A stretch of DNA of 25,102 nt, from positions 1-25,102 of IMG/VR virus record IMGVR_UViG_3300028829_005299. The stretch is one strand, 5' to 3'. The stretch comes from a virus. The position numbers were made by a program, and so were the translations under genes. Of this stretch, positions 3,721 through 21,859 are shown in pieces; the stretch's first letter is position 1; every line of letters starts with the position of its first letter. The notes under the pieces were generated by a model. That model ran no database searches. It was not told the origin of the DNA and saw only the letters and a list, made by a program, of their open reading frames with translations.

Positions 3721-3738
3721 CCTGAAATAAGCAACATT

Positions 3739-6207
3739 ATGGTAATGACAAGAGAAGAGTTCGAAGCGGAATTTGAAAAAAAATCCCAAGGTGGAGGTAG
3801 CAAAAAAGGTGGTCTAAGTCATGGCGACATGAGAAGCTTAGCCAAAAGGCTGGTTAACGCTATGGACGGCTCAGGCACCGGGCACGATGAGATAGAGGCT
3901 GTTTTAGGTATACTTAACTCGCACACTGCGGGCAAATCCAGTAAGGCTAGAGATACTGTTTTTAAAAGAGTAGCGCAGGAATTTGAAGCCCACTCCGACG
4001 ACAATCTCTCCCTTAGAGACGCTCTACTATCGGACTATTCAGAATTTTCTGACTGGAACATCGGAGGCACTGACCACGATGAAGACTCTATCTTAAAAGC
4101 ATTTGGTTTTGCTGAAGACGCCCTTTGGGGCGACACATCCGAAAAATCGGACGCACAGTCAACAACTGAGGGTTTAAACGTTCCTAACATGGACCGTTAT
4201 GGACCTGATGGAGATATGTCTTACGGTCGAGGCGAGCCAGAATTAGACCCATACGAGCAATACCTTGAAGACGAGGTCTTTAATAAGCCAGAATCAAAGG
4301 TCATAGACGCAGACGCAGAACCCACCCCTCCAGCCGAACCTGAATACCCAGAGGACGCAGACCAAATGCCAGACGATTCTGAGTTTGGTGTAGACACCCC
4401 ACCTCCAGGCACCGCGGATCCAGGCAATGGATTACCACCTCGTGAAGAAGGATTTGAAGAATATTTAACTGAAGAAGAACCTACCCCAGACTCAGGCCAT
4501 GGAACTTTCCCTGGAGACGGCGCCCCAGAAGGGCCTTCTCGTAAACCGCGTACATCTTCTTATGTAACGAAAAGTGGAGAGATTGTAACTGAAGATTTTA
4601 GAGATGTAGACTTCCCAGAAGAGCCTCCACCATTCCCTGAACCTCAGATTAACCCAAGGACTGGGCAGCCGGAGCAATCGATAGAAGCGCTCTATACTTG
4701 GCAAGCGCAAAACGCGAAGTATCAGCAGGACATGAAGCGAGAGGAGGCTGACCAAGCGTACAACACCGCTTTACAAGAAAGACACAACCAACTAAACCGA
4801 ACAAACACAACAGGCAGAGGGGCGAATCTTGATCGCGAATATCTTCGAGATAAAGACGGAAACATCCAGGTCAACCCAAAGACTGGCAGACCTATGTTCG
4901 AGACCGATAGCACGCACACTTCCCGCGTAAACGCACAAAGAGAGCAGATTAGGCAAGCGGCAGCTAACAAAAAAGCATTAGCTGACTTCAACAATCCGCA
5001 ACCTGACTATCGAAGAGCGGTGACCCCCAGCAACAAGAGAAATTTTGACATAAGCGACATGCCTTACGAAACGAGGATAGCGTATGAGCTAGCCAACTTA
5101 AAAGGAGCAGGCAAACTCATCGATCAAAGCCCCGAACCTAAATTCAAGCCTGCGGGCTATGGGCAAGAGCATTTAGCACACCAAAAAGGAATGCAACTAT
5201 ACGATCCGTTTGTACCTGGGCAAGCTCAGAAAGATCACAAAAGGTATATGCAAGCAAAAAGAGAGCTTGACGAGTGGAATGCTAAAACATCCGAGCAAAT
5301 ACTTGCAGAAGCAGACGCCGCTCAAGAAGAGAGAATGGCTGCGGATATAAGAGATAAGATGGGAGCAGGGGCAGGCTTAAAAACTAAAAAATTTACTGGG
5401 GGTATTGGATCTTCTGCGTTTGGAATCCTTCCAGACGCTAACAGGTCAGGCAGCTTCCACAAAGGCTGGACAGGTGCTCACGTACCAGAAGGCCCTGATG
5501 ATGAAATGTGGTCCCCCGAAGGGATTGAGAATCTCGAAGGACAGATGGAAATTGCGGGTTTAATCGACGGCGCTGATGAGGCCGCTTGGGAACCGGAAAT
5601 TCCAGCAGGGATTGATGAAAGCGAACTAGTAGATGAGCCTACAAGACTCCCTTCAGGCGAAATATTACCCCCACTGCCAGAAGACTTAATAAACCAACCC
5701 GACTCACATCAAGTAATCGATGCGCCGGACGGCACGCAGGACACAATTGACTCATACATGACCGACCCTAACAGATGGGAACGTAAGGATCAAATCCCGC
5801 CCCTAAGCAGCCAGATTAACTCTGCAGATAGATTGTTAGCAGAGATGGAAAGAGATCGTTTAATAAACCAACCTGACACACATCAAGTAATCGATGTGCC
5901 AGGAGCGCAAGAACCGGAACCTCCACAAAGTGGGTACGGAGACAGCGGAGGTTTTGGATTAGATACAATGGGATCTAGTCCCGACAATATGTATAACGGC
6001 CCATTAATGCCGTTTGATGCCTCAGGCCCAACAAACATTTATGATGGCCCTCTATATGAAGAGGAAGATGAGGAGCTACAAAACACTATTGACGCATATA
6101 TGAACGGTGAAGGTTGGGGCAACAATTCGGACTACGACCCGTGGAACCCTGGACTAGGGTATTCCGAGTCTTTTTACGATCCTCAAGATCCCTGGAATAG
6201 TTATTAA
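3739..6207 (+). CDS. large acidic, probably disordered protein; candidate virion/ejected protein
   Basis: An 822-residue protein with no recognised family. The N-terminal 135 residues look helical and folded. Residues about 150-310 are rich in Pro, Asp and Glu and probably disordered. Residues about 320-550 are charged and helical with many Gln and Asn. The C-terminal 270 are again acidic and low-complexity. A motif LINQPDxHQVID occurs twice (residues 650 and 708). The C-terminus carries YDPWNPG and DPQDPWNSY, matching a YDPW motif at the start of the next protein. There is no cysteine in the whole protein. The start is ATG 3739 or 3745; no Shine-Dalgarno is visible. It ends two bases before the giant gene. 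A scaffold, internal virion protein or chaperone of the giant protein is plausible, all by context. Confidence 0.85.
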   Translation: MVMTREEFEAEFEKKSQGGGSKKGGLSHGDMRSLAKRLVNAMDGSGTGHDEIEAVLGILNSHTAGKSSKARDTVFKRVAQEFEAHSDDNLSLRDALLSDYSEFSDWNIGGTDHDEDSILKAFGFAEDALWGDTSEKSDAQSTTEGLNVPNMDRYGPDGDMSYGRGEPELDPYEQYLEDEVFNKPESKVIDADAEPTPPAEPEYPEDADQMPDDSEFGVDTPPPGTADPGNGLPPREEGFEEYLTEEEPTPDSGHGTFPGDGAPEGPSRKPRTSSYVTKSGEIVTEDFRDVDFPEEPPPFPEPQINPRTGQPEQSIEALYTWQAQNAKYQQDMKREEADQAYNTALQERHNQLNRTNTTGRGANLDREYLRDKDGNIQVNPKTGRPMFETDSTHTSRVNAQREQIRQAAANKKALADFNNPQPDYRRAVTPSNKRNFDISDMPYETRIAYELANLKGAGKLIDQSPEPKFKPAGYGQEHLAHQKGMQLYDPFVPGQAQKDHKRYMQAKRELDEWNAKTSEQILAEADAAQEERMAADIRDKMGAGAGLKTKKFTGGIGSSAFGILPDANRSGSFHKGWTGAHVPEGPDDEMWSPEGIENLEGQMEIAGLIDGADEAAWEPEIPAGIDESELVDEPTRLPSGEILPPLPEDLINQPDSHQVIDAPDGTQDTIDSYMTDPNRWERKDQIPPLSSQINSADRLLAEMERDRLINQPDTHQVIDVPGAQEPEPPQSGYGDSGGFGLDTMGSSPDNMYNGPLMPFDASGPTNIYDGPLYEEEDEELQNTIDAYMNGEGWGNNSDYDPWNPGLGYSESFYDPQDPWNSY
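5686..5900 (+). repeat. two near-identical 41-bp copies within the 822-residue gene
   Basis: Bases 5686-5726 and 5860-5900 match at 38 of 41 positions and encode LINQPDSHQVIDAP and LINQPDTHQVIDVP. The copies are 174 bp apart (58 codons, in frame). The sequence between and after them differs, so this is a short duplicated motif in an otherwise divergent region. The pattern fits a repeated peptide binding site. Confidence 0.85.
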
Positions 6208-6209
6208 TC

Positions 6210-9200
6210 ATGTGGGAAGACGAAGGCTTCGGCGGTAGTTCTTATGATCCGTGGAGTAGTTCCACTGATTTATGGGGCTCCCCCGCATCTAAACCTAGAG
6301 AAAAAGAAAAGCTAAGCACGGAGCAACCATCGCGTGTATTTTCTGACAATTCTCTAAATGACATCCTCAATAATTTTTATAAAGAAAAACAACGTCAAAA
6401 AAACACGACACCACCCTCGGCATTTCGTGAGGTAAAGGATGTAAGATTTCATGAAGCGGACTATTCAAATGTTGTAGAACAACCCCAAAGCAAACAAGCT
6501 TTTCGCCAATACAGAGAATGGGAGGAGACTGGAAAATTCCACTTTGACGAAGAGAAATTAGCTAAGGATAATTTCACAGCCTACTCGCAAGTAAAAGACA
6601 ATTTTTACAAAGAGAAACTCGTACCCTTTTACGAAAAACTTTTCTTTACAGAACCCACAAATGAATTCACCGCTTTTGATGAGTTGGAGGAGTATTTTAA
6701 AGACCCCAACAACGATGCTACTGAGTGGGGGAATTATCGAGACGCATATCTTAGAGTTCGGGAGAATTACAAAAAAGCCGAAAACAATTATCTCGGGAAA
6801 AAAGACGCTAGTATTGATTTTAGAGACCGCAAGCAACAAGTTGATCCCGCTTTTCGAAGGGCCTACCAAGATTGGTCTACAAATACTAAATACGATAAGG
6901 GGACCCCAGTAACTTCGGAAGATAAGAAGAAGGCATTGTTTCTGGAAAATTGGGACATGGGTTTAACTGGGGACGAGAACGACCCTTTATTTAGCCTTAA
7001 AGGTTTACTAAAACAGAAGTACGACCCCAAAGCCACGCAAGACGATTTCATGGAATTGATGGAAGAGCACAAGCAAGCAGACTATTTGTCTGGAGCTGGC
7101 TTCCAAATACCACCCTCTAAGCTCGGTAAAGTGGGAGGTATTTCAAACAGGTTAAGACCTGACGAACGTAAGTTCTTGTTCCTTAAAAGGGCCAAACAAA
7201 ACAACATCTCACATATGATGGTCGATGGGGTAAAAAAACCGATCGACGACATGTTCTTTGACTTCAAAAACTTTACCGATAAGGACGAGGCTAATCTCGA
7301 GCTAATGGATAAGTTTTTCAATGACTCAGCACTCCACAATAAAGCGGTCACTGAGTACTGGGCTAATGTGGCAGACATGAGTCCCGAAGAGCGAAAAGAG
7401 GCTCAATCGAAAAACAAACTATTGCTCGGGATTGTAAAACAAAGAGCTGTCGAACTAGAAGCCAACGGGTTAATCGACGAAGCTTACAATCGCTCGGAAT
7501 CTCTCAATGAATTAGGCAGACTTTCGTCATGGACGAAGACAGGTACATTAGCGGCAAAGTCGGCTGATCTACTTCAAAACGCTATAGCTATGGGCGGAGA
7601 CGTCCCTATGAGCACATGGCAGCAGCTGTCTGAAGTTACAGAAATGCAGCAAGATTTAGAAGAACACAAAGAGAAAGAAGGGTACTCAGCGCTTGCTGAA
7701 ATACAAAAGCTTGAACAAGAAGAAGGGACTACTGGATGGATGGATACGATAGGCAGATGGTTAGGGAACCCGGAAGCTATTGTACAAACCGCTGTAGAAT
7801 CGTTCTCATCTCTTGTACCCGCATATTTAAACACAGCTCCGGAGACTATAGGGTCATCAGCAGCCGCAGGAGCGTTAACAGGAACTATCCTACCTGGCGC
7901 TGGAACTGTGGCTGGAGCTGTTACTGGCTCTTCAATTGGAGCGAAGATAAATTACGGCATCGCATCAGGCTTTCTTGAAGCATCCTCTAAAGTTATAGAG
8001 GTGATGAATGATATGGGTATAGACACCACAGACCCAAATCAACTTGCGGGAGCGTGGGCCAACCCTACAGCAAGAGAGGAAATACGAGAGAAAGCATTAA
8101 AGAAGAGCGTCCCTATTGCGATTATGGACGGACTCAGCGCTGGACTTGCAGGTAAAACTGCTGCGATATTTAGACAACCAACGATTTTAAAAAAGCTCCC
8201 ATCATCACTCCCAGGAGGAAAGAAATACTATAAGGGTTTAAGTGATAAAGCTAGTGATGAGTTAGGCGCATTAAAGAAGAAAAAAAGAAAGAGCGGGCTC
8301 AACAACAAAGAGACTGAAAGAGAGAAATTTTTAGACTCAAAAGTAAAAGGAATTGTCCCGACCGAATCGGCGTTCTCTAGAGCAGCAAGACTTTCTGACT
8401 CAAAAGTACACAGATACACAAAGATGCAGCGTGCTAAAAACGCAGGTCTTGAGATGGGGACACAAATGGCTTTTGGTGCTGGAGGGGAAGTTGCAGGACA
8501 ATTATGGTCTAGAGACCCTGGCGACCCATTAGATAAAAACGCTGTAATGGGTGAGATCTTTGGTGAATTAGGTGGTATAGGTACTGTCACTTCAGCGCTA
8601 GAGATAGCAGGTAAAAGAGGCAATCCTCTGTCTAAGAAAGAGGAGATTGATATGCGTAGCTCCGGTTTCGTTAGCGATAAGGGGCAAGAGATAGATAACG
8701 CAGATGCGGAGATTCCTTATAAGGGGACAATGTATCAGGTTGACAGAGCTGGCTGGGTCCACCCTGCGCTTGAAGTTGAGACCGCCGGTGATGCTACAGG
8801 CTTCATCGCTGAAAAAGCTGGGATAGCCGCCACTATTGAAAACCCAGACCCTCAAAAAACAGACCCTATGGTAAACCCCCAGCTTCAAGTTATGGAGGAA
8901 TATATCCAGGGAGTAATGAATTTAATGAAGGCGTCTCCGATGACGTCTGGTAAACTTAAAATAGCTATTACAGACAGGACTCCAGATGGAAATAAAGCTA
9001 AGGGATATACGCAAGTCGACCAGGAGTCTGGGGACACATACGTCTATTTAAACCCTCAAGCAGCTAAAGATCAGAATACTGATATTATGGGGGCTGCCAT
9101 TCACGAATTTCCACACATATTAGGAAAAACAGTTTGGGGCGAAGCCCAAATCTTAAAGTGGTATTCTGAGTTAACTGGCCCACAACAAAGACAAACAGCA

Positions 9201-12200
9201 GCACATTATCTTTTTAAAGATGAAGTAGACAGCGCGGGCGTGTCAAAAGCACATATTGACTTTAATAAACCAGGAGCGTTAACAGAGGCAGAAGAGCAAG
9301 TTCTTGGTAACTACATGTCGTCAACTACACCAGAGGAAAGAGCCATGGAGTGGTTTTCTTTTGAGTACGCGCGAACACTTTTAGGGGGGATATATGACGA
9401 AGATAAGCAACACAGCGTCAGGATTAAAAAAGCAGATCCAGACTCTACAAGCCCTAATGAGGTAGACCAATATTTAGATATGCCAACCTCCCTCCCCACA
9501 GGTTTAAATAAAGACATATTAACTTTAGTAGATAGACATATTGCCCAACCTTATATGAAATATATAGGTTCTGGAGCTCGCAACCAATCTGCAAATATCG
9601 CGAACCCCACTATCGAAAACAGGATGGCTGGGCAGTATGTAGACGATAAAGGTAAACCCAGCCTCTCATCTAACGCAGCTCTTCGACCCGAGAAAATGGG
9701 CATCCCTGAGATGTACGCGATCATACTTGAACAGTCAGGATGGATGAAAACTCCAGACAACAAGCTTAAGTATGTAGGCCCAGACAAGGTTGTTAAAGGG
9801 CTTGAGGTAAATCGCTTTGGAGATCTGACTGAGTCTAGAAACAAACTACTTGATGAAGCTCAACATGTTAGACGGTTATCAAGAATTGTTGGGCTAACAG
9901 GTCCGGAAAGAGTTCAACTCCAACAAATGATTGGGGAGAAGGGTGAGGTCACTTTAGAGAGAACTAAAGAGAACCCCAAAGGATATGAGACTCAAGGCTT
10001 TGGGTCTCAGTCGAAGGCCGATACGGACGATTTAGTCGAGACTGAACTTTCTAAAATGGAGGCCCAGGAGCGTGAACGCCCATTTCAACCGGCCGACAGG
10101 ACATTACAAAAAAGTTCGGACATTGGAACAACTGAAGAGGAGATCGGCGTACTTGAAGACGAGTATGCTGAAACTGAAGAAACATCTACCAGAACTACTC
10201 GAACACCTCTCAGGAAAAACGAAGAGTTGTCAAAAGCCCGTCAAGAAAGAATTTCAGGATCTCAAGAGCCGGGAGAAGGACAACTTCCAGTCGCCACTAA
10301 AGGGACTAGTTACAACAAGGGAGACAGCACAGAAGACTCTGTAATTACTGGAGAGAAAACGACTACATCCAAGGGGACTAAGCAAGTCACTAAAGGTGGG
10401 ACAGTCTATCGCGACTCACAAGGCAGAGCATACACATTAGGCGAAAAGAAAGAACGCCCAAGACCTGGCTACGCAGGAGATGAAGACGATAAAGGACACC
10501 CAGCTGATCGCAGAAACTATTTAAGTACCTCTGAGATCGCCAAAATAAAGTTTAACCCTGGTAAAGAAACAGCCCAAAGATTGTTAGTTGGGGTAGATGA
10601 AAAACAAGATCCTATTGGAGAGGTCGATCAAGATATAATTGAAGAATCTTCAGAACGTGGAGGTGAAAGGCTCTTAAAGAGAATGGGCCTCCGCAATCTC
10701 GAGGAGATCCATACCGACATTAGTAAAATGTTGAAGGAGGGCACAAAGAGAGGTTTAGACAGAAAAGAAATATGGCAAACAGTGGGGTATAAAAGGCTTT
10801 TAGAAGAGCGCACTATAACAGCTAACGTGTTAAAAGAAGCTAAGTCTAAGGTAAAAAAAGATGTGTCTAAAGTCACGGACATCCCCAAAAATAAAAGCCC
10901 AAAAGCAAGCGCTGAAGAGTTAATAACTAGAATTGAAGAAAGGCGCACAGAGTTTAGAGACAAATTTGACGGAGCCACTCCCGAACAGAAGATTAAAGAG
11001 TTAAAGAAACTTCTTAAATCTAACGATAAGAAGTTCATGGAGTCTACTAAAGATATAGTTGATAAGCTAAAGAAGGAGAGAGGCCGCTTTACTGAAGAAG
11101 AGTTTTTAGGAGAGGTTGCGCGTTCGTTTGGTTTAGATGAAATGGCAGACACCTTTAAAACAGGTAGATCCAAACTAAATTTAAAGGCTGACCAGAAGTC
11201 CGTCACTGAAGCATACGCATTAGCTGAAGAGCTTGTTAAAAACGAAATCGAACTCCTTGATACAAAAAAACAGGAGTTATCACAAAACCTCAGAGATACA
11301 GAAGGCGAGATTAAGACGCAAACAAGCGAGTGGGGTGACGGACCAAAGTTGGCAGAGTTTTTCCAGGATAAAAAAGGAGCTGACGGAAAGGTCATCTTTA
11401 AAGATGGCAAGCCTGTAAAAGAGAAAAAGACAGTAGCGTCTCTGGACGATAAACAACTTAATCAACTGGTAGACACCATAAAGAAAGCCGCTAAAACAAA
11501 AGATTTTAAAACTTCGGCCGACATTAAATCGATTTTAAAAATTGAAAATAAAGAAGCAAAAGAAGTAATAGCTAACGCAATTTTAAATTTAAACAGTGTA
11601 TTACCTGGTAAAGGTATTGATTATTTAAAAACTGGAAAGTCATTAGCGGGGACAGGTTTAAGCAATGACCAAATTAGGGTAGCGCAATATAGCGTTGAAC
11701 AGTTTCAAAATTTAGCAAAAACAGGCGCAATACTTAGGGTGCAGACTCGACCCGAAAATACGAAAGCTTTAAAAGCTAGCAAAGATAAAGCCGCAGCACT
11801 AAAGACTAAAATCCAGAGATTAGATAATCTTGTTGATTCAATAGGTGTAGGTTCCGCAACACAGACCGCAGGTTGGAAAAATATACAACCTCAAGGAAAA
11901 GACATGTTTGGTTATTTCAAAAAAGTGTGGGACAGCAAAACCAAAACAAATATAGAGGTACCAATAACCTTAGGTGATTTAACAGGCACAAAGAAGATGG
12001 ATGTTTATCGCAAAAATTATAAAGGGATTGAACAGAAAGTGCCCTGGACAAACCCGGCAAATGAGCTGAAAAAACATTTAGACAAAAATCTAGGACCAGA
12101 AGGAATGCGTAGCTGGGGGGACGAGATTATTGGAAACCCTGGGCAGACATATGGCGACTACGCCTTAGCTTTGTTGCATGCGGAAGCAGCCATACGTGAA

Positions 12201-15200
12201 GGAGAACCACAACGCACTGAACACGGCACTTTTGAAACACACTATTTTCAAGGCGACTCCACAAATATTGTAGGGGCTTTAGCTACTAGGATAAAAAGAT
12301 TACGTGAAAACATACCTCAAGCTTTAGGTAGGCTTGATGCAGACGTTCAAGGTGAAGAGTTATCAGCAGCAAACAATGATTCTGCATTAATGAAGAGAAG
12401 GCTCGAAGCCGAACGGGCAGAGCGTTTAGAAGGCGCTGATCTAGAACACTACAATCGATGGCGCGATATGCAGAGCTACGACGGTGCGTGGGCTGAAGAG
12501 CTTAAGAAAGCGCAAGATATTAGAGACGAAGCGGTAGCCAAGCAGACTGAGAAATCAAGGCTTATAGATAGGCTCTTTAAAACTAAAGACAACGAACGAA
12601 ACAGAATCCCAATAAGTCAGGCAATCGACACGGTTGAGAAGGTGCAAGATCGGACTATTGAGGAAGACGAACTTCTACAAGATTTAAAAGATTTTCGGGA
12701 CAAAATTCCTAAAACGGACACAAAGACGGGTTTTGTAGAGTACCTTAAAGAAAATAGACTTACGATTGCACAAAGAAGAGAAGACAAGGACAAAGTTCAA
12801 AAACTTCCTCTTCACATAGCTGCTGAAGATAAGATCATTTTAAATATAGCAAATACAAAACTGTCGCAGGAGATGTTTGGGGTACCTTCCAGCACAGTCG
12901 GGCAGATGCACTATAATAGAGATCAAATTGACTACCAACTCAGCGTTGAAAAAGAGCTAGATGACCACATCGCAGACCTTCAACACCAAGTAGAAATTGG
13001 CGGATCTCCAATGAGGGCGGCAACGATAGGCCAGTTTTTTAAGAAAGATGAATTGTTTAAACACGGCAGCGAGTTTAGAAGAGCGACACAAGATTTCGTA
13101 TTTTCAAGAAAAGACCACAATAAAATCCTCCTTAATTCAAACTCTAAAGTGGTCGACCGTTTAGAGTTTAAACCGAACGAGAAAGAGATTACTCCGCACA
13201 CACCAGAAGAATCTCAAAGAATTAAAGACATTTTAGAGTCGGCTGTCACAGCTAGACAACACTATCTCCTTCACCAATTTGATTTCACGGAGACTGATAT
13301 TCTGAACGCTGATCCAAGTTTAGATATTGACGGATCTCCCGTTTCGTACAGCCACCTAATCAGGTTGAAACACGAAAACCTGGCCTACAACGGCCCCTCA
13401 AATGAACGAGGAGCTGCTTACGGAGACAACAGACCTGGTAGAGATTCTACAGAACATAAGGACCCAATATTTGCGGATCCTGACTGGGGAGGGACTCGTG
13501 TAACAGTAAACGGTAAAGAAAAGTCTTGGAATGAGGCATATAAGGAAATAGCGGAGAGGCAAAGAAAAGGCGAAGCCACAGAAGAGGACGCTGAGATTTT
13601 AGCTAATCTAGAAGCCCAACGTAATAAATTTACCCGTGGAAGAGACTTTTCAGGTACTACAAGTGGGAAGCTTTTTGGAGAGGTGATTGACGCTCTTAAT
13701 AGGATCAAAGAGGAAAAGGGCGGATTAACCGAAGAGGAGATTGATTTTGTTGAGTACGACCCTCGAATGGATAGGTCGTACAACCTTGCCTTGAGGTTGA
13801 GACAAGCAATTACTCGAGGAGATAAAAGACTGCCTAAATCAGTAACCACAGTAAGAATAAACAGAGGAGGAAAGTGGATTGTCGAGACTGACATAGAAAA
13901 AATCTTACAAGACGAAGATCTTAAAGCGCAGTGGTTTAAAGATAACGCTTTTTTAGCAAAAGATTTTGTACATCACTTTGACAATCTAGCCCACAAATCC
14001 GACCCAGTTATTAGTGCAACAAATTCAATTGAAGACAACAACATGGTTAAAAACATGTTTCATAGGCAGGCACTGGAGGAGGCGAAAGACATCTCTGAAA
14101 TAGCTAAGCGAGGATACACAAAAGAGGTTTCCGCTGGAGAGATGTCCTCAATCCAGAAAGATTTAGCATTAGCCCAGCCAAACGCCTCAGGCATTGAGGG
14201 ACTCGTTAATCTTCAAAAAGAATTTAATAGCTTCGTAGAAAAGTTAAAGTCAAGTGGCGGTAGACTTGTTTACTCAGAAAATAAAATCCGAAATAACAGA
14301 AAACTATGGGTTAATCAGTACCCTATACTTGGCTTAGATATCCTTAAAGGAAAATTAAACACCCGCAAGGGAGAAGGGGGCGCATTTATAAACTCCGGAA
14401 AAGGGCACCGCATCCCCGTGCAAATGCTTTTAGAAGGTGATGAGTTTTTTATCAACGACCACGAAGGAAACCATCAAGTAATGTCTTTAACTCAAAGGTT
14501 TAAAGTTAAAGATGAGAATATGTTCAGACAAGCGATGGACTCAACCATCTCAACCGAAGAACGTATTAAAAGACTCAAGAAAGCTTTAAACGGAGTTAAG
14601 TTTAGACCAGAGACGCAAAATAAACGGGTGCTTGCTAAAGATAAAAGTTGGCAATCTAGAAAGGCTATTGATGAGGCGAACTTAGAATTAGCTGAGATGC
14701 GTGTAGGTCTAAATCAATACAAAGATATCCAAAAAAGAACAGCACCTCCAGGAAAAGAAGCTAAAAAAGAACACCGAGCAAACGTTAAAAAAGCTGTTCA
14801 AAAGGCAGAAGATAATATTAGAAAACTCGAGCTCGAAATTAAAAGCGCTCTTAATTTCTTAAAGACAGGTGAAGGCACGTTCTCATTAGGCGATACATAC
14901 TCGCAGGATGGGCTTTTAATGGAGCACTCTATGGGAGGTTGGGGTATTGTCACAGATAATGAAATGACCCCAGCTTCAGATAAGGTTGCGGCAATTCTTG
15001 ACAGATACTACTTGGACGAAGTTCATCAGATGGACCACTCCGCTGGAGCTTATGTTGATCGTTCTTCTGAAGTTCAAGATAATCAGAAATATGTTGAAAC
15101 CCGCAAACCGTCAGCAAGACAACAACTATCATCGTTTACAGTCACCCCCCGACAAGTTGGGGACTTCTTAATGAAACACGGTTTAGGGGGTGCTAATAAA

Positions 15201-18200
15201 ATAGCAGGCTCTCATTCTAAATGGCACGCGGAAACAGATGGCGGAATTCTTGGGTTAAAATATTTAGACGGCACGATTGACGAGATGTTAAACGACATGC
15301 AAAGCATTCCTGCCCGAAAAATCGAAAGATTAACCGAGCTGAAAAACAAAGCTAAGAATAAAGCTAAAATCGCACACATCGATAATCTCATAGCCCATCA
15401 GCTAAATATCCAAGAGTCATTTAAAAACACCTCTCCCGCAGATAGAGTTATGTTAGAGCATTTCTCCATGTTGATGGAGAATGTAAGTAAGGACAGTGTT
15501 GCAGACGGGTTGTTTAGCGAGAGCGATAAAAAGGTGGCACAGACAGTTTTTGAAGGAAAAGGAGACGCGATGTCTGTCGCTATAGCGCAGTCTGAGATTC
15601 CATATTCCGAAGCACGTATTGTAAATCTTGGCGTAATAGAAGAGACAAAAGATGGTAGGAAAATAAAAACCCCTATTCGCGGTTTATTGACTCCAGCTTT
15701 TAAAACCGCTCCTGACGCTGTTGAAAATAAAAAGATCGAACCTCGTAAAATAACTTACGAAACATACGAAGAGGAGGCTGGAAAAGGTAGGTCAATAAAC
15801 GAAACCGTAAAAGTAGTAGACTCTACTGGAGTAGTTGAGAGCGCTAAGAAAATAAACCTTATCCCTATTTCTAGCAGATGGCCTGTCGACCCTTCGACAA
15901 ACCAAAAGAAATCCGCTTATGTATACGACATTAAGATTTTAAGAACTGACCGCGACGTAGCTACCGCGGCCCATCTTTTAATTAAAGAAAAATTTGATAA
16001 CAAGACCGCTGAGGTTAGGGATAGATTAGTTAAATTTGAAGAACTGCATGAGCAGTATATGTCTGAAATACAAGGTAGGGAAATTAGGGACGAAGACGGT
16101 AACCTTATTCAACACATACCAACCGGTGTAGGTCAGATGACCGAAGAGCAAATTCAGAAGCTTGCAGAGAAAAAGACAAACGCTCTAGCTATTAAGCAGA
16201 AGCAAGAAGATCTCGAAAATATGTTTTCTTCTGGAAACCCAGACATCGCCAGCTTAGCTGTAATTTTTGATTTCGATAATTTACTCCCTAAGAAAAAAGA
16301 CAAGGACGGTAATGTAATTAAAACTCCCGAAGGAGCTGCGATTCGTGAAAAAGTAAAATATTCCTCCGCCCGCAAAGACACAGGTATTAATCTTCAAGAG
16401 GCTAAGTTAAGAGCTTTAGGACGTATGGTTGTTGAGTCTGGAGGAGTTAGGCATGACACCAAAAAAGATGTTAAAAAAGCTCAAGAGCAGACTGAATTAA
16501 ACGCTAAAGAGTTAGTAAAAGGAGGCGACCAAAGTAATTTCACCGAATATAACCCTGACGACGCTGAGAGTTCAGAGGGAGCGTTCGCACAAACGAAAGA
16601 CGACGATCTAGGCGCAGTCACCGATGAGGAGTTGGTACAATACCAGCAGTTTATCGACCCTGCATCTTTTGTAGACGAGGTGGATCTTGGAAACAGTGAA
16701 AGATGGATAGGCACTTCAATGTCTAAGTTTTTCACTCCAACATCGACTTTAAAGAAATTAGCTGCGCGAGCTACCCGAGGGTACTCTAATTGGGACTCAA
16801 TAGTAAAAGGCGAAAAAGATCTTCCCAAAGATGGATTTTTGGCAAAACGAGCTAAGAGTGGGTATGTACGTTTTGTCGAGCAGTTTGCAGCGTTTGAATC
16901 TCTCCACCCCGAGGTCTCAAAAGCTTTCGGTATAGATAAGAATTCAGACGAAGCAGAAAGAATAAACGTCTATTCAGAGCTCTACAGTGTGATGGGTAAG
17001 ACTGGAGATTTGATGGATCAATCTTCTCGCGAGCTAATCAACCCTATTGGAGACGCTATGTATGAAAGCAAGGTAGACCAGGAAAAACTAGGGAACTATC
17101 TTATCGCTTTAGTTGCGCCTCAGGTAAATAGGGCAGCGATGAATAATCACAACAGTACAAAAGGAAAAAAAGAAGACGCTCCTGTTGACGCCAACGGCAA
17201 ACCTAACGGTTCTGGAATGACAGACGATGAGGCAAATGCCAGAGCACGGCAGTTAGAGGGTGATATAAATATCGCTAGATTTATCGCTCATAAAAATAAA
17301 CCTATTAATAAGATTTTTGCGATACACCAAAAATCCCTACAGCTTGCTGCAGATTCAGGAATGATCGGAAAAGATCAGTACGATAAGATGTTAAGTGCAG
17401 CCAAAGATAAAGACGGAAATTTTAGAAGACTGCCTTTTAAAGGTATGTGGTGGCTTGAAGGAAATCAATGGGCCGAAGAGCATGAAATCTCTGATACTGT
17501 AGGAGGAGCCAGTCGCGCAAGTGGAAAAGGTTTAGATCAGTCCAGAAAGGCCGGACTAACCCCAGGAACTAAGGGCAGAAAAGAAGGCCAGTGGGCTGAC
17601 CCGATGGCAATGCTCGAAAACACCATTCAGATGCACCAAGAGGCTGTGATTAGGTCTCAACGTCTTGGGCCTGCTAACATGCTTATCGATATCCACAATA
17701 AGCTTAAAGAAAGCTATGAGAAAGATAAGGACTCTTATCAAGGCCGGCTGTGGAATCAATTATTCATGGAGCCAGAGGACAAAGTAGATTTTGAGTATGC
17801 AGCAATAAAGGACGCAGAGGGTAAAGAGACGGGGCAGATGACTAAGGTTATAAAACCGGCAGAAATGAACGACACCCGTTTTACTTTTTACGGCAGAAAG
17901 GACGGTGAGCCGATCATGATTAAGTTTAATAATAAAACTCAGGAAGGAGCTGATCTTGCGGCCGCAGCCAAAAACCTAAACCACCAACAGATGACTAATT
18001 TCATGGAGGGGTTAAATTTCACGACCCAATTGATGGGTAAATTGGTGACCTCCTGGAATCCAGAGTTCTGGCTTAGAAACCCTGTTCGTGATACCAGCGC
18101 AGTGTTTTTTAATATGGGAGACAGCCCAGAAGGTAAAAAGGCAAGAAAAAGGATTTTAAGCCCTAAGAAGTTTTTTAAACAGACTAAAGCTATCGCGAAA

Positions 18201-19814
18201 TACGAAAACTATTTAAACAAGCACGGAAGCGTTCACCCTGATATAGGGGACGGCCCAATTGATATAGCTAGGGTACATAGCGACCCAATGTATGCGTACC
18301 ACCACATGAAAGCTCAGGGTGGAAAAACTGCGTTCTATGTTTTTAAACCTATAGCTGATCTCATGAAAGATATGGCTAAGATTTTAAAAGAAGGTCGTAG
18401 TGGAAAGGGCGCAGCCAAAGTAATTAGGGCTTTGGGCGAAACTATTGATATGATTAACGTATCTTTAGAAAACGCCTATCGCGTAAGAGTATTTGCTGAG
18501 ATGTTGCATGACGGGGTTCATATAAAAAGAGCTGTAAGAGAAGCTCGTAACGCGACCGTAGACTTCAATAAGCGAGGCGTGAATAGTCGAGCTTTAGGGA
18601 CTTTTCTTCTTTTCTCTAATCCCACAATACAAGGTTCAAAAAGAAGTATGCAGGCTTTTGCTAAGCGAGGACCAAAAGGAGCTGCACAGGCGGGTTTTGG
18701 AATTTTCTTAACATTTTTATCCTGGAGCACTATAGCCAGGGCTCTTTCTCAAAGAGACGACGATGAAGAAGATGACGGTTCTACATACTATGACGACCGT
18801 GGAAATATTAAAAACAGTTCTTCAATCGGCATCCCTCTAGATATGTTTTTCGAAAAGTCTACTGGTAGGCATTTTGATCTCCCTGTAGATTTCTCATGGA
18901 CACCAATTGTCGGTTTAGCAGACTTAATATCAAAACAGTTGTTCTACCACGGCAGTGATAAACACGCCCCTAATTTGGTGGGCGATTTAGTAGATTACGT
19001 AGTCAACTCCTCTGTTGCAATAGCCCCTAACCCCGCCGATTTAGGTTTACCCATACTTGAACCTTTAAAAGATGTGTGGTTTAATAAAAAATCTTTTGGT
19101 GGTATGCCTATATATAATGAAGGGCCTAATTGGAACCCTGCGTCATCCCCTGAGGAGATGTCAACCAACAGAACTTCACAGGCCGCTAAAGCTCTTTCTA
19201 ACTATATTAACAGAGCAGGCGGAGGTACAGAGAAGACACCAGGTAACTGGTTGCAGTTTATGGGCGGTTTCCTCGGGCTTACCGATATAGATTCTCAAAC
19301 AGATCTGAAAGACCCAACCTTTAAAATGGGGTCTGGAGTATCTGCTCCCGTACTGTCGTACCTATTGAAAGAGTACACGAATGGTCTAGGAGAAGCAGGA
19401 GAAGATATGGCAAACTTACTGTTCTTCCCAGGAGACACATCTTCTAAGAAGTATCCTTTAGTCAATGCTTTATTAAAACCAAAAACTTCTGATTTCCCAA
19501 CAGTTAGTAGATACTATGAAATGGAAGGAAGGGCCCGATCCATCGAGAACTTAATAAAACATTGGCAGAAAGCTGGGCAGTCAGCCAAAGTTAGAGATTA
19601 TTACCGCCGTTTCCCAGAAGCCAGAAAGCTGATTACTGTAGTTAAAGCTGCCAAAAGAAACTTTGAGGGCATTAAACGCCAATCAAAGGCTCTAGATCAG
19701 AAAAACGTTGATGCCGCCACAAAAATGCAACGGTTGGATATTCTCCAAGAAAGGCGTATTAATACTATGAGACAAGCACTAGTAAAAGCGCACAAACACG
19801 GCGTACCTGTATGA
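6210..19814 (+). CDS. giant polyvalent/internal virion protein (4534 aa), LPD38-like C-terminus
   Basis: One uninterrupted frame encodes 4534 residues (roughly 500 kDa). In order: an acidic N-terminus with YDPW; helical region to about 500; a glycine/alanine-rich membrane-type module (about 505-660) starting at WLGNPEAIVQ and ending in MDGLSAGLAGK; an HExxH site (HEFPH, 965-969) with downstream Glu 1047/1052; a Lys/Glu-rich coiled-coil stretch (about 1330-1790); another helical stretch (about 2050-2250); a second HExxH string (HEGNH, 2751-2755); and a C-terminal part (about 3590-4180) with GSGMTDDEANA, NPEFWLRNPVRD (3950-3961), ENAYR (4087) and FNKRG (4119). This last part resembles LPD38 of large polyvalent phage proteins. 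A hydrophobic segment lies near 4158-4178. It has no cysteine at all. The stop overlaps the portal start. Probable role: ejected with the DNA to help entry and act early in the host. The exact activities are unproven. Confidence 0.9.
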   Translation: MWEDEGFGGSSYDPWSSSTDLWGSPASKPREKEKLSTEQPSRVFSDNSLNDILNNFYKEKQRQKNTTPPSAFREVKDVRFHEADYSNVVEQPQSKQAFRQYREWEETGKFHFDEEKLAKDNFTAYSQVKDNFYKEKLVPFYEKLFFTEPTNEFTAFDELEEYFKDPNNDATEWGNYRDAYLRVRENYKKAENNYLGKKDASIDFRDRKQQVDPAFRRAYQDWSTNTKYDKGTPVTSEDKKKALFLENWDMGLTGDENDPLFSLKGLLKQKYDPKATQDDFMELMEEHKQADYLSGAGFQIPPSKLGKVGGISNRLRPDERKFLFLKRAKQNNISHMMVDGVKKPIDDMFFDFKNFTDKDEANLELMDKFFNDSALHNKAVTEYWANVADMSPEERKEAQSKNKLLLGIVKQRAVELEANGLIDEAYNRSESLNELGRLSSWTKTGTLAAKSADLLQNAIAMGGDVPMSTWQQLSEVTEMQQDLEEHKEKEGYSALAEIQKLEQEEGTTGWMDTIGRWLGNPEAIVQTAVESFSSLVPAYLNTAPETIGSSAAAGALTGTILPGAGTVAGAVTGSSIGAKINYGIASGFLEASSKVIEVMNDMGIDTTDPNQLAGAWANPTAREEIREKALKKSVPIAIMDGLSAGLAGKTAAIFRQPTILKKLPSSLPGGKKYYKGLSDKASDELGALKKKKRKSGLNNKETEREKFLDSKVKGIVPTESAFSRAARLSDSKVHRYTKMQRAKNAGLEMGTQMAFGAGGEVAGQLWSRDPGDPLDKNAVMGEIFGELGGIGTVTSALEIAGKRGNPLSKKEEIDMRSSGFVSDKGQEIDNADAEIPYKGTMYQVDRAGWVHPALEVETAGDATGFIAEKAGIAATIENPDPQKTDPMVNPQLQVMEEYIQGVMNLMKASPMTSGKLKIAITDRTPDGNKAKGYTQVDQESGDTYVYLNPQAAKDQNTDIMGAAIHEFPHILGKTVWGEAQILKWYSELTGPQQRQTAAHYLFKDEVDSAGVSKAHIDFNKPGALTEAEEQVLGNYMSSTTPEERAMEWFSFEYARTLLGGIYDEDKQHSVRIKKADPDSTSPNEVDQYLDMPTSLPTGLNKDILTLVDRHIAQPYMKYIGSGARNQSANIANPTIENRMAGQYVDDKGKPSLSSNAALRPEKMGIPEMYAIILEQSGWMKTPDNKLKYVGPDKVVKGLEVNRFGDLTESRNKLLDEAQHVRRLSRIVGLTGPERVQLQQMIGEKGEVTLERTKENPKGYETQGFGSQSKADTDDLVETELSKMEAQERERPFQPADRTLQKSSDIGTTEEEIGVLEDEYAETEETSTRTTRTPLRKNEELSKARQERISGSQEPGEGQLPVATKGTSYNKGDSTEDSVITGEKTTTSKGTKQVTKGGTVYRDSQGRAYTLGEKKERPRPGYAGDEDDKGHPADRRNYLSTSEIAKIKFNPGKETAQRLLVGVDEKQDPIGEVDQDIIEESSERGGERLLKRMGLRNLEEIHTDISKMLKEGTKRGLDRKEIWQTVGYKRLLEERTITANVLKEAKSKVKKDVSKVTDIPKNKSPKASAEELITRIEERRTEFRDKFDGATPEQKIKELKKLLKSNDKKFMESTKDIVDKLKKERGRFTEEEFLGEVARSFGLDEMADTFKTGRSKLNLKADQKSVTEAYALAEELVKNEIELLDTKKQELSQNLRDTEGEIKTQTSEWGDGPKLAEFFQDKKGADGKVIFKDGKPVKEKKTVASLDDKQLNQLVDTIKKAAKTKDFKTSADIKSILKIENKEAKEVIANAILNLNSVLPGKGIDYLKTGKSLAGTGLSNDQIRVAQYSVEQFQNLAKTGAILRVQTRPENTKALKASKDKAAALKTKIQRLDNLVDSIGVGSATQTAGWKNIQPQGKDMFGYFKKVWDSKTKTNIEVPITLGDLTGTKKMDVYRKNYKGIEQKVPWTNPANELKKHLDKNLGPEGMRSWGDEIIGNPGQTYGDYALALLHAEAAIREGEPQRTEHGTFETHYFQGDSTNIVGALATRIKRLRENIPQALGRLDADVQGEELSAANNDSALMKRRLEAERAERLEGADLEHYNRWRDMQSYDGAWAEELKKAQDIRDEAVAKQTEKSRLIDRLFKTKDNERNRIPISQAIDTVEKVQDRTIEEDELLQDLKDFRDKIPKTDTKTGFVEYLKENRLTIAQRREDKDKVQKLPLHIAAEDKIILNIANTKLSQEMFGVPSSTVGQMHYNRDQIDYQLSVEKELDDHIADLQHQVEIGGSPMRAATIGQFFKKDELFKHGSEFRRATQDFVFSRKDHNKILLNSNSKVVDRLEFKPNEKEITPHTPEESQRIKDILESAVTARQHYLLHQFDFTETDILNADPSLDIDGSPVSYSHLIRLKHENLAYNGPSNERGAAYGDNRPGRDSTEHKDPIFADPDWGGTRVTVNGKEKSWNEAYKEIAERQRKGEATEEDAEILANLEAQRNKFTRGRDFSGTTSGKLFGEVIDALNRIKEEKGGLTEEEIDFVEYDPRMDRSYNLALRLRQAITRGDKRLPKSVTTVRINRGGKWIVETDIEKILQDEDLKAQWFKDNAFLAKDFVHHFDNLAHKSDPVISATNSIEDNNMVKNMFHRQALEEAKDISEIAKRGYTKEVSAGEMSSIQKDLALAQPNASGIEGLVNLQKEFNSFVEKLKSSGGRLVYSENKIRNNRKLWVNQYPILGLDILKGKLNTRKGEGGAFINSGKGHRIPVQMLLEGDEFFINDHEGNHQVMSLTQRFKVKDENMFRQAMDSTISTEERIKRLKKALNGVKFRPETQNKRVLAKDKSWQSRKAIDEANLELAEMRVGLNQYKDIQKRTAPPGKEAKKEHRANVKKAVQKAEDNIRKLELEIKSALNFLKTGEGTFSLGDTYSQDGLLMEHSMGGWGIVTDNEMTPASDKVAAILDRYYLDEVHQMDHSAGAYVDRSSEVQDNQKYVETRKPSARQQLSSFTVTPRQVGDFLMKHGLGGANKIAGSHSKWHAETDGGILGLKYLDGTIDEMLNDMQSIPARKIERLTELKNKAKNKAKIAHIDNLIAHQLNIQESFKNTSPADRVMLEHFSMLMENVSKDSVADGLFSESDKKVAQTVFEGKGDAMSVAIAQSEIPYSEARIVNLGVIEETKDGRKIKTPIRGLLTPAFKTAPDAVENKKIEPRKITYETYEEEAGKGRSINETVKVVDSTGVVESAKKINLIPISSRWPVDPSTNQKKSAYVYDIKILRTDRDVATAAHLLIKEKFDNKTAEVRDRLVKFEELHEQYMSEIQGREIRDEDGNLIQHIPTGVGQMTEEQIQKLAEKKTNALAIKQKQEDLENMFSSGNPDIASLAVIFDFDNLLPKKKDKDGNVIKTPEGAAIREKVKYSSARKDTGINLQEAKLRALGRMVVESGGVRHDTKKDVKKAQEQTELNAKELVKGGDQSNFTEYNPDDAESSEGAFAQTKDDDLGAVTDEELVQYQQFIDPASFVDEVDLGNSERWIGTSMSKFFTPTSTLKKLAARATRGYSNWDSIVKGEKDLPKDGFLAKRAKSGYVRFVEQFAAFESLHPEVSKAFGIDKNSDEAERINVYSELYSVMGKTGDLMDQSSRELINPIGDAMYESKVDQEKLGNYLIALVAPQVNRAAMNNHNSTKGKKEDAPVDANGKPNGSGMTDDEANARARQLEGDINIARFIAHKNKPINKIFAIHQKSLQLAADSGMIGKDQYDKMLSAAKDKDGNFRRLPFKGMWWLEGNQWAEEHEISDTVGGASRASGKGLDQSRKAGLTPGTKGRKEGQWADPMAMLENTIQMHQEAVIRSQRLGPANMLIDIHNKLKESYEKDKDSYQGRLWNQLFMEPEDKVDFEYAAIKDAEGKETGQMTKVIKPAEMNDTRFTFYGRKDGEPIMIKFNNKTQEGADLAAAAKNLNHQQMTNFMEGLNFTTQLMGKLVTSWNPEFWLRNPVRDTSAVFFNMGDSPEGKKARKRILSPKKFFKQTKAIAKYENYLNKHGSVHPDIGDGPIDIARVHSDPMYAYHHMKAQGGKTAFYVFKPIADLMKDMAKILKEGRSGKGAAKVIRALGETIDMINVSLENAYRVRVFAEMLHDGVHIKRAVREARNATVDFNKRGVNSRALGTFLLFSNPTIQGSKRSMQAFAKRGPKGAAQAGFGIFLTFLSWSTIARALSQRDDDEEDDGSTYYDDRGNIKNSSSIGIPLDMFFEKSTGRHFDLPVDFSWTPIVGLADLISKQLFYHGSDKHAPNLVGDLVDYVVNSSVAIAPNPADLGLPILEPLKDVWFNKKSFGGMPIYNEGPNWNPASSPEEMSTNRTSQAAKALSNYINRAGGGTEKTPGNWLQFMGGFLGLTDIDSQTDLKDPTFKMGSGVSAPVLSYLLKEYTNGLGEAGEDMANLLFFPGDTSSKKYPLVNALLKPKTSDFPTVSRYYEMEGRARSIENLIKHWQKAGQSAKVRDYYRRFPEARKLITVVKAAKRNFEGIKRQSKALDQKNVDAATKMQRLDILQERRINTMRQALVKAHKHGVPV
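7722..8190 (+). other. membrane-type Gly/Ala-rich module of the giant protein
   Basis: Residues about 505-660 read WLGNPEAIVQTAVESFSSLV, then a stretch dense in small residues with GxxxG-like spacing (ILPGAGTVAGAVTGSSIG), then a helical part with MGIDTTDPNQL and AIMDGLSAGLAGKTA. I have the impression that similar 'NPxxxxxxxxESxPxx... G-rich ... GxD ... DxxxxGxA' layouts recur in giant phage internal and polyvalent proteins. Membrane insertion during DNA ejection is a reasonable inference, as the uninterrupted small-residue helices could span or coat a bilayer. Confidence 0.5.
8880..9395 (+). other. zincin-like metallopeptidase domain of the giant protein
   Basis: Residues about 890-1062. A strand-like stretch SGDTYVYLNPQA precedes the helix AAIHEFPHILGKTV, containing HExxH with His965, Glu966 and His969. 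A candidate third metal ligand is Glu1047 or Glu1052 in EERAMEWFSFEYA, resembling the 'ExxAExFAxY' helix of metallopeptidase-like domains in phage polyvalent proteins. All catalytic residues of a minimal zincin are therefore present, but fold and activity are not proven. Confidence 0.5.
18042..18755 (+). other. LPD38-like domain of the giant protein
   Basis: Residues about 3945-4182. Recognisable signature elements in order: SWNPEFWLRNPVRD, then a helical segment, ENAYRVRVFAEMLHDGV, AREARNATVDFNKRG (partly, near 4104-4123), FSNPTIQGSKR (4136-4146) and a hydrophobic helix FGIFLTFLSWSTIA. This arrangement is what I recall for Large Polyvalent protein-associated Domain 38, usually found near the C-terminus of very large phage proteins encoded close to the portal, as here. 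The domain's function is not established. Confidence 0.65.
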
Positions 19815-21859
19815 TGAAATCAACCAATTTAAAGTTAGACCAAAAACAAGAAGAAGACCTTCTTGAATACGCCTGCAAAAGGCTAGAGGAGCTCAAGACC
19901 GACAATAAAGAGCGAATCGAGGTCGATAGGGGAGGTTGGAATGTGTACAATAATGACAGAGATGATCGGTCTGGAGCAGACACGGTTTTCAGCCACTCTA
20001 ATGTACCCATACCTTTAACTTCATTAGTTGTAGATCATTTTTTAGCTAGAGCAGAGGACGAGATAACTGGAACCTCTCCTTATTTTAAATTTGTACCTCA
20101 GGGGGCTGGCGACCAAACAACCTCCGAAATGTACGATAAATATTTTAATTGGAAAATTGAAAAGCAAGCTAGGACTAGGGAAAGGCTTGAAGAGGCTTAT
20201 CTCCACATGTTCATCCAAAGAGCTGCGATCTTAAAAGTGACATACCACGAAGAGATCTCCGAGTGGGTGGAATATGACCGCAAAGCTTTGTTCAACAACC
20301 AAACCGGTGAGTTCGAAAACTCTATAGCGGGTCCAATCATACAAGGCAAATCAGAGTTTGCCCCAACTATGAGTCCTGAAGGCACTCCTACAATGGCTCT
20401 GACTGAAGATCCAAGTTTTGTACTCAACCCTCAAGCACATACATTTGAAGACTACCCATATCCTGTCCCAGCCCAAGAGGTGAAGTACTCAGGTCCAAGG
20501 TCTTTGATCGTAGATAGCGATCGATTCTTAGCTCCTTTGAATGTGGAACATTTAGAGGACGCAGATTTTATAGCTGAACTCTATGACAAAGATTTAAACT
20601 GGGTTAGAAACATGTTTCTTGAAAGGGAGTGGATGAGCTCAGAAGAAGCGTTCGAAAAGATGAAAAAAGACGCAAACCCAAGAACCGAATCCGATAAAAA
20701 TGAGGAGTCTAAAGAAGACAAGTCTTTTGATAATTTAAAAAATCCTGTGTTTCAGGTCGTTGAATGTTGGATAAAGAGAGATGTTTTAGGGACTGGGACT
20801 CCTCAAGAGTTCTGCGTATTTATCGAGCCTGAGACTAAGACAGCTATTTACTATGAGTACATGGCAAAAATGACCCCTGACAACAGACTACCCTTCACCA
20901 CTATCGCTATTGGTAGGGCAAAGAATCGTTGGTGGGGGCCGAGCTTACCTGAAAAGATTAACATTTACCAGGAGTTCGTAGATAAACAATTTAACAGCGA
21001 AGCTCATAGAAACGAGCTTTCAGCAAACCCTATAATAACGGTCAACCCACAAGCTCTTGAGGATGAGCCAGACGATATTGAAATCCACGCAGGGAAGATC
21101 TTTCAACTAAAAGATCAGAACCAACTAGCGGATTTTATTGAGTTCTCACAAATCCCATCCCAAGACGCGAAGACCCAAGAACTAATAGATTTTGTTTTTG
21201 GTATGGTTCAGCTTTGGTTAGGTGTTTCTAACATGGCCCAGGGAGACTACCAAGCATTAGCTCCCGCCAATACTGCGACCGGAGTTGAAGCTACGCTTAA
21301 CGAGGCTTCCAAAATTGGTCGTCGATGGATGCGTAGAATTGTTAGAGGTTTAGAATCGCACCTGACAAAAATGGTTAAGTTAACCATGACAACTTTAGAT
21401 CAAGAAGAGGTATTTGAATACAATGAAGGAGATGTCTCAGCGTTTGCCCAGATGTCACCAGACATGATTAAAGACCTCGAGGTTAACTGCATAGTCGTAC
21501 TGTCTCAGGACCAAGGTCAAAGGGCGATGGAGAAAGCCAACCTGGCCCTTCAGACACAAGAAAGATATTTTAATTATCCTCCAGAGCTCAGATCTTTTAC
21601 TAGACCTATGCTTAAGAGAATTCTTGACGCTATGGGTTATGAAAACTCTGACGAGTTACTTCCACAAGAAGCTCCACCTGACCCTATGCAACAAGCTGAG
21701 CAAGCTAAATTAATGGCTGACGCTCAAGGCGGAGGCGGAGGCGGAGGCGAAGGAAGCGCACCTCCCCCTAAAGACGGCATAGAGGGGCAGATGCAGGGCA
21801 TGGGAAACAGTAACCCGCAAGGTCAAAACCAATATCAACAATCAACCCAACCTCAGTAG
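19811..21859 (+). CDS. portal protein (head-to-tail connector)
   Basis: A 682-residue protein that would form the dodecameric DNA channel at one capsid vertex and dock the terminase. Portal-like features: an N-terminal helical part with PLTSLVVDHFLARAEDEITG (69-88), the stretch WWGPSLPEKINIYQEFVD (374-391) typical of the clip/stem region of podovirus-type portals, and TATGVEATLNEASKIGRRWM (488-507), the usual 'TAxGxxxxxxxA' segment before the long C-terminal helix. A Gly run (about 640-646) and a Gln/Asn/Pro-rich tail end the protein and look disordered. Length is in the podovirus connector range. The start is ATG 19811, which overlaps the giant gene's stop as ATGA; ATG 19814 is also possible. 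It has four cysteines. Confidence in the family is high, though no search was run. Confidence 0.9.
   Translation: MMKSTNLKLDQKQEEDLLEYACKRLEELKTDNKERIEVDRGGWNVYNNDRDDRSGADTVFSHSNVPIPLTSLVVDHFLARAEDEITGTSPYFKFVPQGAGDQTTSEMYDKYFNWKIEKQARTRERLEEAYLHMFIQRAAILKVTYHEEISEWVEYDRKALFNNQTGEFENSIAGPIIQGKSEFAPTMSPEGTPTMALTEDPSFVLNPQAHTFEDYPYPVPAQEVKYSGPRSLIVDSDRFLAPLNVEHLEDADFIAELYDKDLNWVRNMFLEREWMSSEEAFEKMKKDANPRTESDKNEESKEDKSFDNLKNPVFQVVECWIKRDVLGTGTPQEFCVFIEPETKTAIYYEYMAKMTPDNRLPFTTIAIGRAKNRWWGPSLPEKINIYQEFVDKQFNSEAHRNELSANPIITVNPQALEDEPDDIEIHAGKIFQLKDQNQLADFIEFSQIPSQDAKTQELIDFVFGMVQLWLGVSNMAQGDYQALAPANTATGVEATLNEASKIGRRWMRRIVRGLESHLTKMVKLTMTTLDQEEVFEYNEGDVSAFAQMSPDMIKDLEVNCIVVLSQDQGQRAMEKANLALQTQERYFNYPPELRSFTRPMLKRILDAMGYENSDELLPQEAPPDPMQQAEQAKLMADAQGGGGGGGEGSAPPPKDGIEGQMQGMGNSNPQGQNQYQQSTQPQ

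Follow-up and report, generated by a model that had tools for sequence, protein, structure and literature searches.

Cysteine exclusion in a giant LPD38 phage protein, its variable partner and unrelated proteins ejected by short-tailed phages

Cysteine-free proteins in described phages

The absence of cysteine from the virion RNA polymerase (vRNAP) of N4-like phages is stated in four papers (PMC3715699, PMC2784036, PMC3915230, PMC4837373). Three of these propose that it reflects passage through the tail and/or disulfide catalysts in the periplasm (PMC3715699, PMC2784036, PMC3915230), and two of the N4-like phage papers credit Kazmierczak 2002 for the observation. In the open literature searched, we found no-cysteine statements for the N4-like vRNAP only and no wider rule. 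The cysteine-free vRNAP is thus already published together with both explanations, and its breadth across families was not found stated in the literature searched.

We analysed a 25.1-kb window (the whole stretch of DNA studied here) out of a 26.1-kb viral fragment, which encodes a cysteine-free protein of 4534 residues, hereafter the giant, and a cysteine-free partner of 822 residues. N4 vRNAP (gp50) resembles the giant in being a very large cysteine-free protein, and it is an injected virion protein of a short-tailed phage. A first-pass annotation of this DNA had named the N4 enzyme as cysteine-free, and our count (0/3500) bore this out. In contrast to vRNAP, the giant carries LPD38 and a zincin motif, with no T7-like RNA polymerase domain reported by Pfam and PHROG sequence scans, and the cysteine ban observed here covers the whole LPD38 family as well as a hypervariable partner.

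Phage polyvalent proteins with LPD38 and metallopeptidase domains have been described in a paper that does not mention cysteine (PMC5512222). The giant shares with these proteins LPD38 itself, a large multidomain build, a peptidase-like domain and a gene located among virion genes, but it shows few recognisable enzymatic domains. The Bcep22-like phages BcepIL02 (gp69/gp70) and JC1 (gp68/gp69) have the same C-terminal module and the same partner-giant order as the window, whose pair is syntenic with BcepIL02 gp69/gp70. Both BcepIL02 proteins contain 0 cysteines and gp69 carries the annotation 'virion structural protein', and JC1 gp69 (4515 aa, DarB-like) and gp68 (510 aa) were detected in purified virions by mass spectrometry (PMC9144972). 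Unlike the giant, in which none of these domains was found, BcepIL02 gp70 has transglycosylase, methylase and helicase domains. The proteins T7 gp15/gp16, P22 gp7/gp16/gp20 and SU10 gp20-24 are cysteine-free like the window pair and are themselves ejected from the head, but we detected no sequence similarity between them and the window pair. LPD38 is linked to the gp16 slot by position in Pelagibacter phage Lederberg only, where an LPD38 protein occupies the T7 gp16 position.

Cysteine counts in the window, its relatives and the LPD38 family

The window encodes, in order, a lysozyme, the large terminase (TerL), the 822-aa protein, the giant, an SU10-type portal, a 91-aa protein and a fibre-like 886-aa protein (Table 1). 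In the window and in its relatives the giant gene sits between TerL and portal, among virion genes.

Table 1. Features of the window (positions counted from the first nucleotide of the window).
Feature	Position	Strand	Evidence and remarks
Lysozyme	766..1395	+	209 aa, 0 Cys; PF00959 E 3.6e-8
Large terminase (TerL)	1927..3720	+	PHROG terminase matches; 597 aa, 9 Cys
822-aa partner, Cys-free, acidic, Pro/Gly-rich	3739..6207	+	Directly upstream of giant
4534-aa Cys-free giant, LPD38 polyvalent protein	6210..19814	+	LPD38 Pfam match; phrog_14770 E 4e-43
Gly/Ala-rich hydrophobic helical stretch of giant, residues about 531-600	7800..8009	+	Kept in 17 relatives; helical in model
HExxH motif HEFPH of giant, residues 965-969	9102..9116	+	H, E, H invariant in 17 aligned sequences
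Glu1047 of giant, AMEW motif	9348..9350	+	E-W invariant in 17 aligned sequences
Giant C-terminal module, ~900 residues (3635-4534)	17112..19811	+	Common to distant phages; tblastn matches in 126 phage records
LPD38 core of giant, residues 4221-4355	18870..19274	+	PF18857, 32.5 bits vs cut-off 27
SU10-type portal	19811..21859	+	PF23899 E 3.5e-36; 682 aa, 4 Cys

A recount agreed with the first-pass figures, giving zero cysteines in both adjoining plus-strand ORFs and nine and four in the flanking TerL and portal, respectively. With the remaining window genes as background (15/2729 residues), 24.9 cysteines were expected in the giant and 0 observed (Poisson P = 1.5e-11), and 4.5 were expected in the 822-aa protein and 0 observed (P = 0.011, which is weak taken alone). 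When the own base composition per codon position was used instead, the expected numbers were 53.7 for the giant and 10.5 for the 822-aa protein. TGY triplets occurred 75 and 127 times in the two other frames of the giant gene and 0 times in the coding frame, and codons one step away from TGY occurred. These results show that the zero count in the window pair is exact and far beyond chance. The first-pass annotation had called the lack specific, but it extends beyond the pair: lysozyme (0/209), two small ORFs (0/111 and 0/91) and the fibre-like protein (1 cysteine vs 15 predicted by base composition) are cysteine-poor as well. The fibre-like protein also shows a 36-bp tandem array of about 6 copies at 23740-23955 and many Pro/Ser/Val repeats. 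Many relatives encode cysteine-free proteins of 195-413 aa ahead of TerL, the side on which the window has its lysozyme; the lysozyme and these counterparts may be members of the ejected set.

The giant combines several unrelated domains in one chain, namely the LPD38 module, overlapped by the phrog_14770 match at residues 3589-4347, and an invariant HExxH...E region. Judging from the aligned motifs, Glu1047 is probably the third zinc ligand of a predicted zinc-peptidase-like domain, and the Gly/Ala-rich helical stretch is a candidate membrane-inserting segment with a putative membrane role. The predicted model of the N-terminal part had a mean pLDDT of 71. For region 395-1080, VIA-align returned weak matches to gluzincin metallopeptidases (Z about 6, rmsd 3.6 over 143 residues) that were no better than unrelated helical ones in the list and tied with ABC-transporter helices, and Foldseek returned mostly long-helix matches. 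The last 900 residues were modelled with a mean pLDDT of 73.5; the predicted fold of the C-terminal module is one that a large number of viral LPD proteins share (TM about 0.66-0.70, best E 5e-26), and nothing in the PDB matched it with an E-value under 0.6. Regarding tail type, the SU10-type portal is present and 47 LPD38 records were without a sheath family, but the same search missed the P1 sheath too. A YDPW motif was seen twice at 6130-6260 of the window, once close to the C-terminal end of the 822-aa protein and once close to where the giant starts, and relatives of the giant carry other conserved N-terminal motifs (LDLGADDYS, QPFGG), which are possibly packaging signals.

The 822-aa protein had no Pfam or PHROG match; 18 related records yielded no relative of it, and neither did a BLAST comparison with 17 slot proteins. 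Its slot evolves fast: the terminases are clearly homologous, and in 17 relatives the slot is filled by proteins of which none (0/17) could be aligned with that of the window. Some slot proteins have patches in common, in mosaic fashion. The 18 slot proteins, including that of the window, contain in total 1 cysteine per 12,931 residues, and this lone cysteine sits at residue 12 in an ORF that overlaps TerL at its called start. The exclusion of cysteine is thus independent of sequence conservation, and a constraint on composition that persists in this way makes common descent hard to accept as its explanation.

Close relatives were IMG/VR records found via TerL with the same gene order as the window. 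Among 13 full-length giants distinct from that of the window (3313-5832 aa), 11 had 0 cysteines, one had 1 and one had 2, and the portals of the close relatives had 4-5. Two viral records were long (68-69 kb), and in these the giant and slot protein stood out against replication and other genes at about 1% cysteine. Starting from a C-terminal module alignment, we also collected 160 LPD38 loci, 80 from bacterial/archaeal genomes and 80 from viral contigs. The giants of these loci (prophages and viral contigs), which as homologues are non-independent samples but come from many bacterial phyla and range in GC content from 0.34 to 0.72, contained 24 cysteines in 394,544 residues, with none at all in 143/160. 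The remaining ORFs of 200 aa or more at these loci contained 2451 in 272,022 residues (0.90%). The count in homologues, which the first-pass annotation had proposed as a check, was therefore strongly positive. Cysteine was the sole strongly depleted residue (log2 ratio -7.3, about 160-fold down); the next lowest was His (-0.76), Met stood at +0.1, all non-cysteine residues lay within a factor of 1.7, and Lys and Glu were enriched. Depletion of cysteine alone, with Met slightly up, argues against sulfur thrift and general bias. These results indicate that the lack of cysteine in the window giant is a family trait of LPD38 giants.

Some members deserve separate mention. The LPD38 giant of the archaeal virus MetMV (7690-16698) has 3 internal cysteines in 3002 residues, and that on a contig binned as Methanoperedens (1974-3206) has 3 cysteines, which is more than nearly all bacterial LPD38 giants have; the 3 internal cysteines of MetMV are at most a hint on the Dsb-periplasm question. 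LPD38 phage contigs binned as an uncultured archaeon and as Nitrosotalea showed no cysteine whatsoever, and the former, a near relative of the window phage, is probably mis-binned. Shiga-toxin-converting phages occur among the matches.

Ejected proteins, contractile-tail cargo and other threaded chains

No cysteine was found in T7 gp15 (747 aa), T7 gp16 (1318 aa), N4 vRNAP gp50 or P22 gp7, gp20 and gp16, proteins that are taken here to be ejected. P-SSP7 gp15 and gp16 contained 0 cysteines and epsilon15 gp15-17 contained 1-2 each, their ejected status being assigned by position and annotation. SU10 gp20-24, which experiment identified as ejected since they are in the virion and missing once the genome is released (PMC9509320), contained 0 cysteines in 2956 residues, and the cargo of crAss001, whose host is a strict anaerobe (Bacteroides), contained 7 in 7478. 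In total, 26 ejected proteins from seven phages had 15 cysteines in 22,547 residues, compared to 129 in 19,348 (0.67%) for 35 non-ejected virion proteins from six of those seven phages (Fisher P = 5e-28). At the family level, the counts were 1/25,701 for T7 gp16, 1/21,087 for N4 vRNAP and 0/4433 for SU10 gp24. Cysteine exclusion is therefore spread over unrelated ejected families. Contrary to the first-pass claim, it does not cleanly separate ejected from non-ejected proteins: 4/35 non-ejected virion proteins also have no cysteine and fibre-like ones are poor in it, and we rejected its absence as a clean classifier.

The residual cysteines of the ejected proteins lay at chain ends, with 10/15 within 10 residues of an end, a zone making up 2.3% of the length (P = 1e-13). 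Similarly, among LPD38 giants that have a start of their own, 8/13 cysteines fell in the first 10 residues, and some of these N-terminal cysteines could stem from start-codon mistakes. The end bias was absent from non-ejected controls and control ORFs, and cysteine is thus tolerated at the ends of the chains. As a cross-link at a chain end keeps the chain linear and threadable, exposure and threading both probably matter. A single cysteine at position 2 was seen in the gp14-type internal proteins of T7 (27728-28318), epsilon15 (11586-12128) and P-SSP7 (7956-8558), and P1 Hdf (29825-30436) and T7 gp6.7 likewise have one cysteine, at position 2, and no other; it is perhaps a functional N-terminal cysteine.

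Cargo of contractile-tailed phages showed weak cysteine exclusion, with 31/9123 (0.34%) in the P1 DarB family, 16/4870 (0.33%) in T4 Alt and 12/2951 (0.41%) in phiKZ gp178. Compared to the N4 vRNAP, T7 gp16 and SU10 gp24 families (2 cysteines in 51,221 residues), this is an 89-fold difference (Fisher P = 2e-33), drawn from three contractile families with few non-redundant members and from cargo and conduit proteins that differ in function besides route. P1 itself encodes DarB with 9 cysteines, DdrB with 2 and the tape-measure-like Sit with 0/1140. BcepIL02 gp70 (4667 aa, LPD38) has 0 cysteines and has methylase and helicase domains in common with P1 DarB, whose Cys221, 1477 and 1529 aligned to Val, Gly and Ala in gp70. 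T7 RNA polymerase contains cysteine, unlike the N4 virion enzyme. DarB, Alt and gp178 keep cysteine despite a route through portal and tail, so tail passage alone is insufficient to exclude it. Contractile tails release their cargo near the inner membrane, whereas in short-tailed phages the ejection proteins lengthen the tail so that it spans the periplasm.

The tape-measure or tape-measure-like proteins of lambda, HK97, P1, 80alpha and TP901-1 (853-1154 aa) all contained 0 cysteines, with 0/2091 for the two Gram-positive phages (80alpha and TP901-1). The F plasmid relaxase TraI (4674-9944), a passenger of the conjugation channel, had 0 cysteines in 1756 residues, its coupling protein TraD had 11/717, and other MobF relaxases had 1-6. 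From F TraI, threading by itself may contribute to cysteine loss. The Gram-positive tape measures, the anaerobic Bacteroides host and F TraI together show that a Dsb periplasm can be at most one of several causes; an explanation confined to a Gram-negative, Dsb-type periplasm was weakened as a candidate by the cysteine-free Gram-positive proteins.

Proposed exposure of unfolded chains and competing explanations

It is very probable that the giant and the 822-aa protein both belong to the virion and are ejected from it. The first-pass annotation had proposed that both are packaged and threaded unfolded through the portal and tail. Packaging and ejection agree with the BcepIL02 synteny and the JC1 virion homologues, but tail passage as the whole cause conflicts with the cysteine content of contractile cargo. 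We consider it reasonably probable that the head of a short-tailed phage packages giant and partner and ejects them, and that cysteine was removed as their unfolded chains are exposed outside the cytoplasm. The two proteins would be packaged in the head and ejected before or together with the DNA; parts of them would probably help build the envelope passage, and the remainder would go to the cytoplasm. The ejected chains would be largely unfolded and exposed outside the reducing cytoplasm, where an internal thiol could be oxidised or cross-linked to a second copy or to a host protein. The resulting looped or branched chain would block threading or refolding, and selection would strip every internal cysteine regardless of other sequence change. 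Synteny and homology point to the packaging and ejection of the window pair, and we infer that the chains are unfolded and that oxidation drives the selection. With moderate confidence, the cause is thereby shifted from tail passage to exposure of the unfolded chain outside the cytoplasm.

Threading alone, in which every chain that is forced through portal and tail in the unfolded state has to be cysteine-free since disulfides would jam it, is consistent with the strict zero in podovirus ejected proteins and five tape-measure proteins, with the F TraI count and with the tolerance of terminal cysteines, which are unable to loop a chain; partial unfolding of tail cargo was also inferred by the crAss001 authors (PMC10172136). 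We nevertheless regard it as rather unlikely, as P1 DarB, T4 Alt and phiKZ gp178 cross the portal and a long narrow tail at 0.33-0.41% cysteine, and within P1 both DarB and DdrB retain cysteine against none in Sit. A compositional side effect, by which long helical or low-complexity proteins use little cysteine anyway, might be read from the richness of the giants in Lys and Glu and from the scaffolding proteins of T7 and P22, which have 0 cysteines. It is very improbable given that cysteine alone is depleted and that enzyme domains are cysteine-free in BcepIL02 gp70 (methylase, helicase) and N4 (RNA polymerase) but not in P1 DarB or T7 RNA polymerase.

Avoidance of cysteine because the particle stays long in oxidising surroundings would accord with non-ejected virion proteins being somewhat cysteine-poor (0.67%). 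However, portal, nozzle, capsid and fibre proteins are stored alike yet keep cysteine, with ten times fewer in the ejected ones, and contractile head cargo is stored likewise. We gave this explanation just as little credence as the compositional one and rejected it as largely contradicted, since the co-stored non-ejected proteins retain cysteine. Chance, or codon usage peculiar to one genome, might suffice for the 822-aa protein taken by itself, but its probability is negligible in view of the Poisson value for the giant alone and of the same outcome in 160 LPD38 loci across the whole GC range. Chance, codon bias and general compositional bias were accordingly rejected on that value and on the cysteine-only depletion in the residue composition table.

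Returning to exposure of the unfolded chain, we lean towards a general ban on cysteine in proteins that phages send unfolded across the host envelope, covering podovirus ejection proteins, tape-measure proteins and LPD38 giants. Such a ban would spare chain ends, would be weak for contractile cargo delivered directly at the inner membrane, and would leave a homology-free record of the route. Through the difference between contractile and short-tailed phages, what was long a comment on a single polymerase becomes a claim about the envelope route that can be tested. If the rule holds, cysteine content would be a simple homology-free guide to those of the many uncharacterised late phage proteins that enter the cell, and would hint at the redox and folding state of the chain en route. 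These results suggest that a reactive thiol is too costly for a chain to carry while it is being injected.
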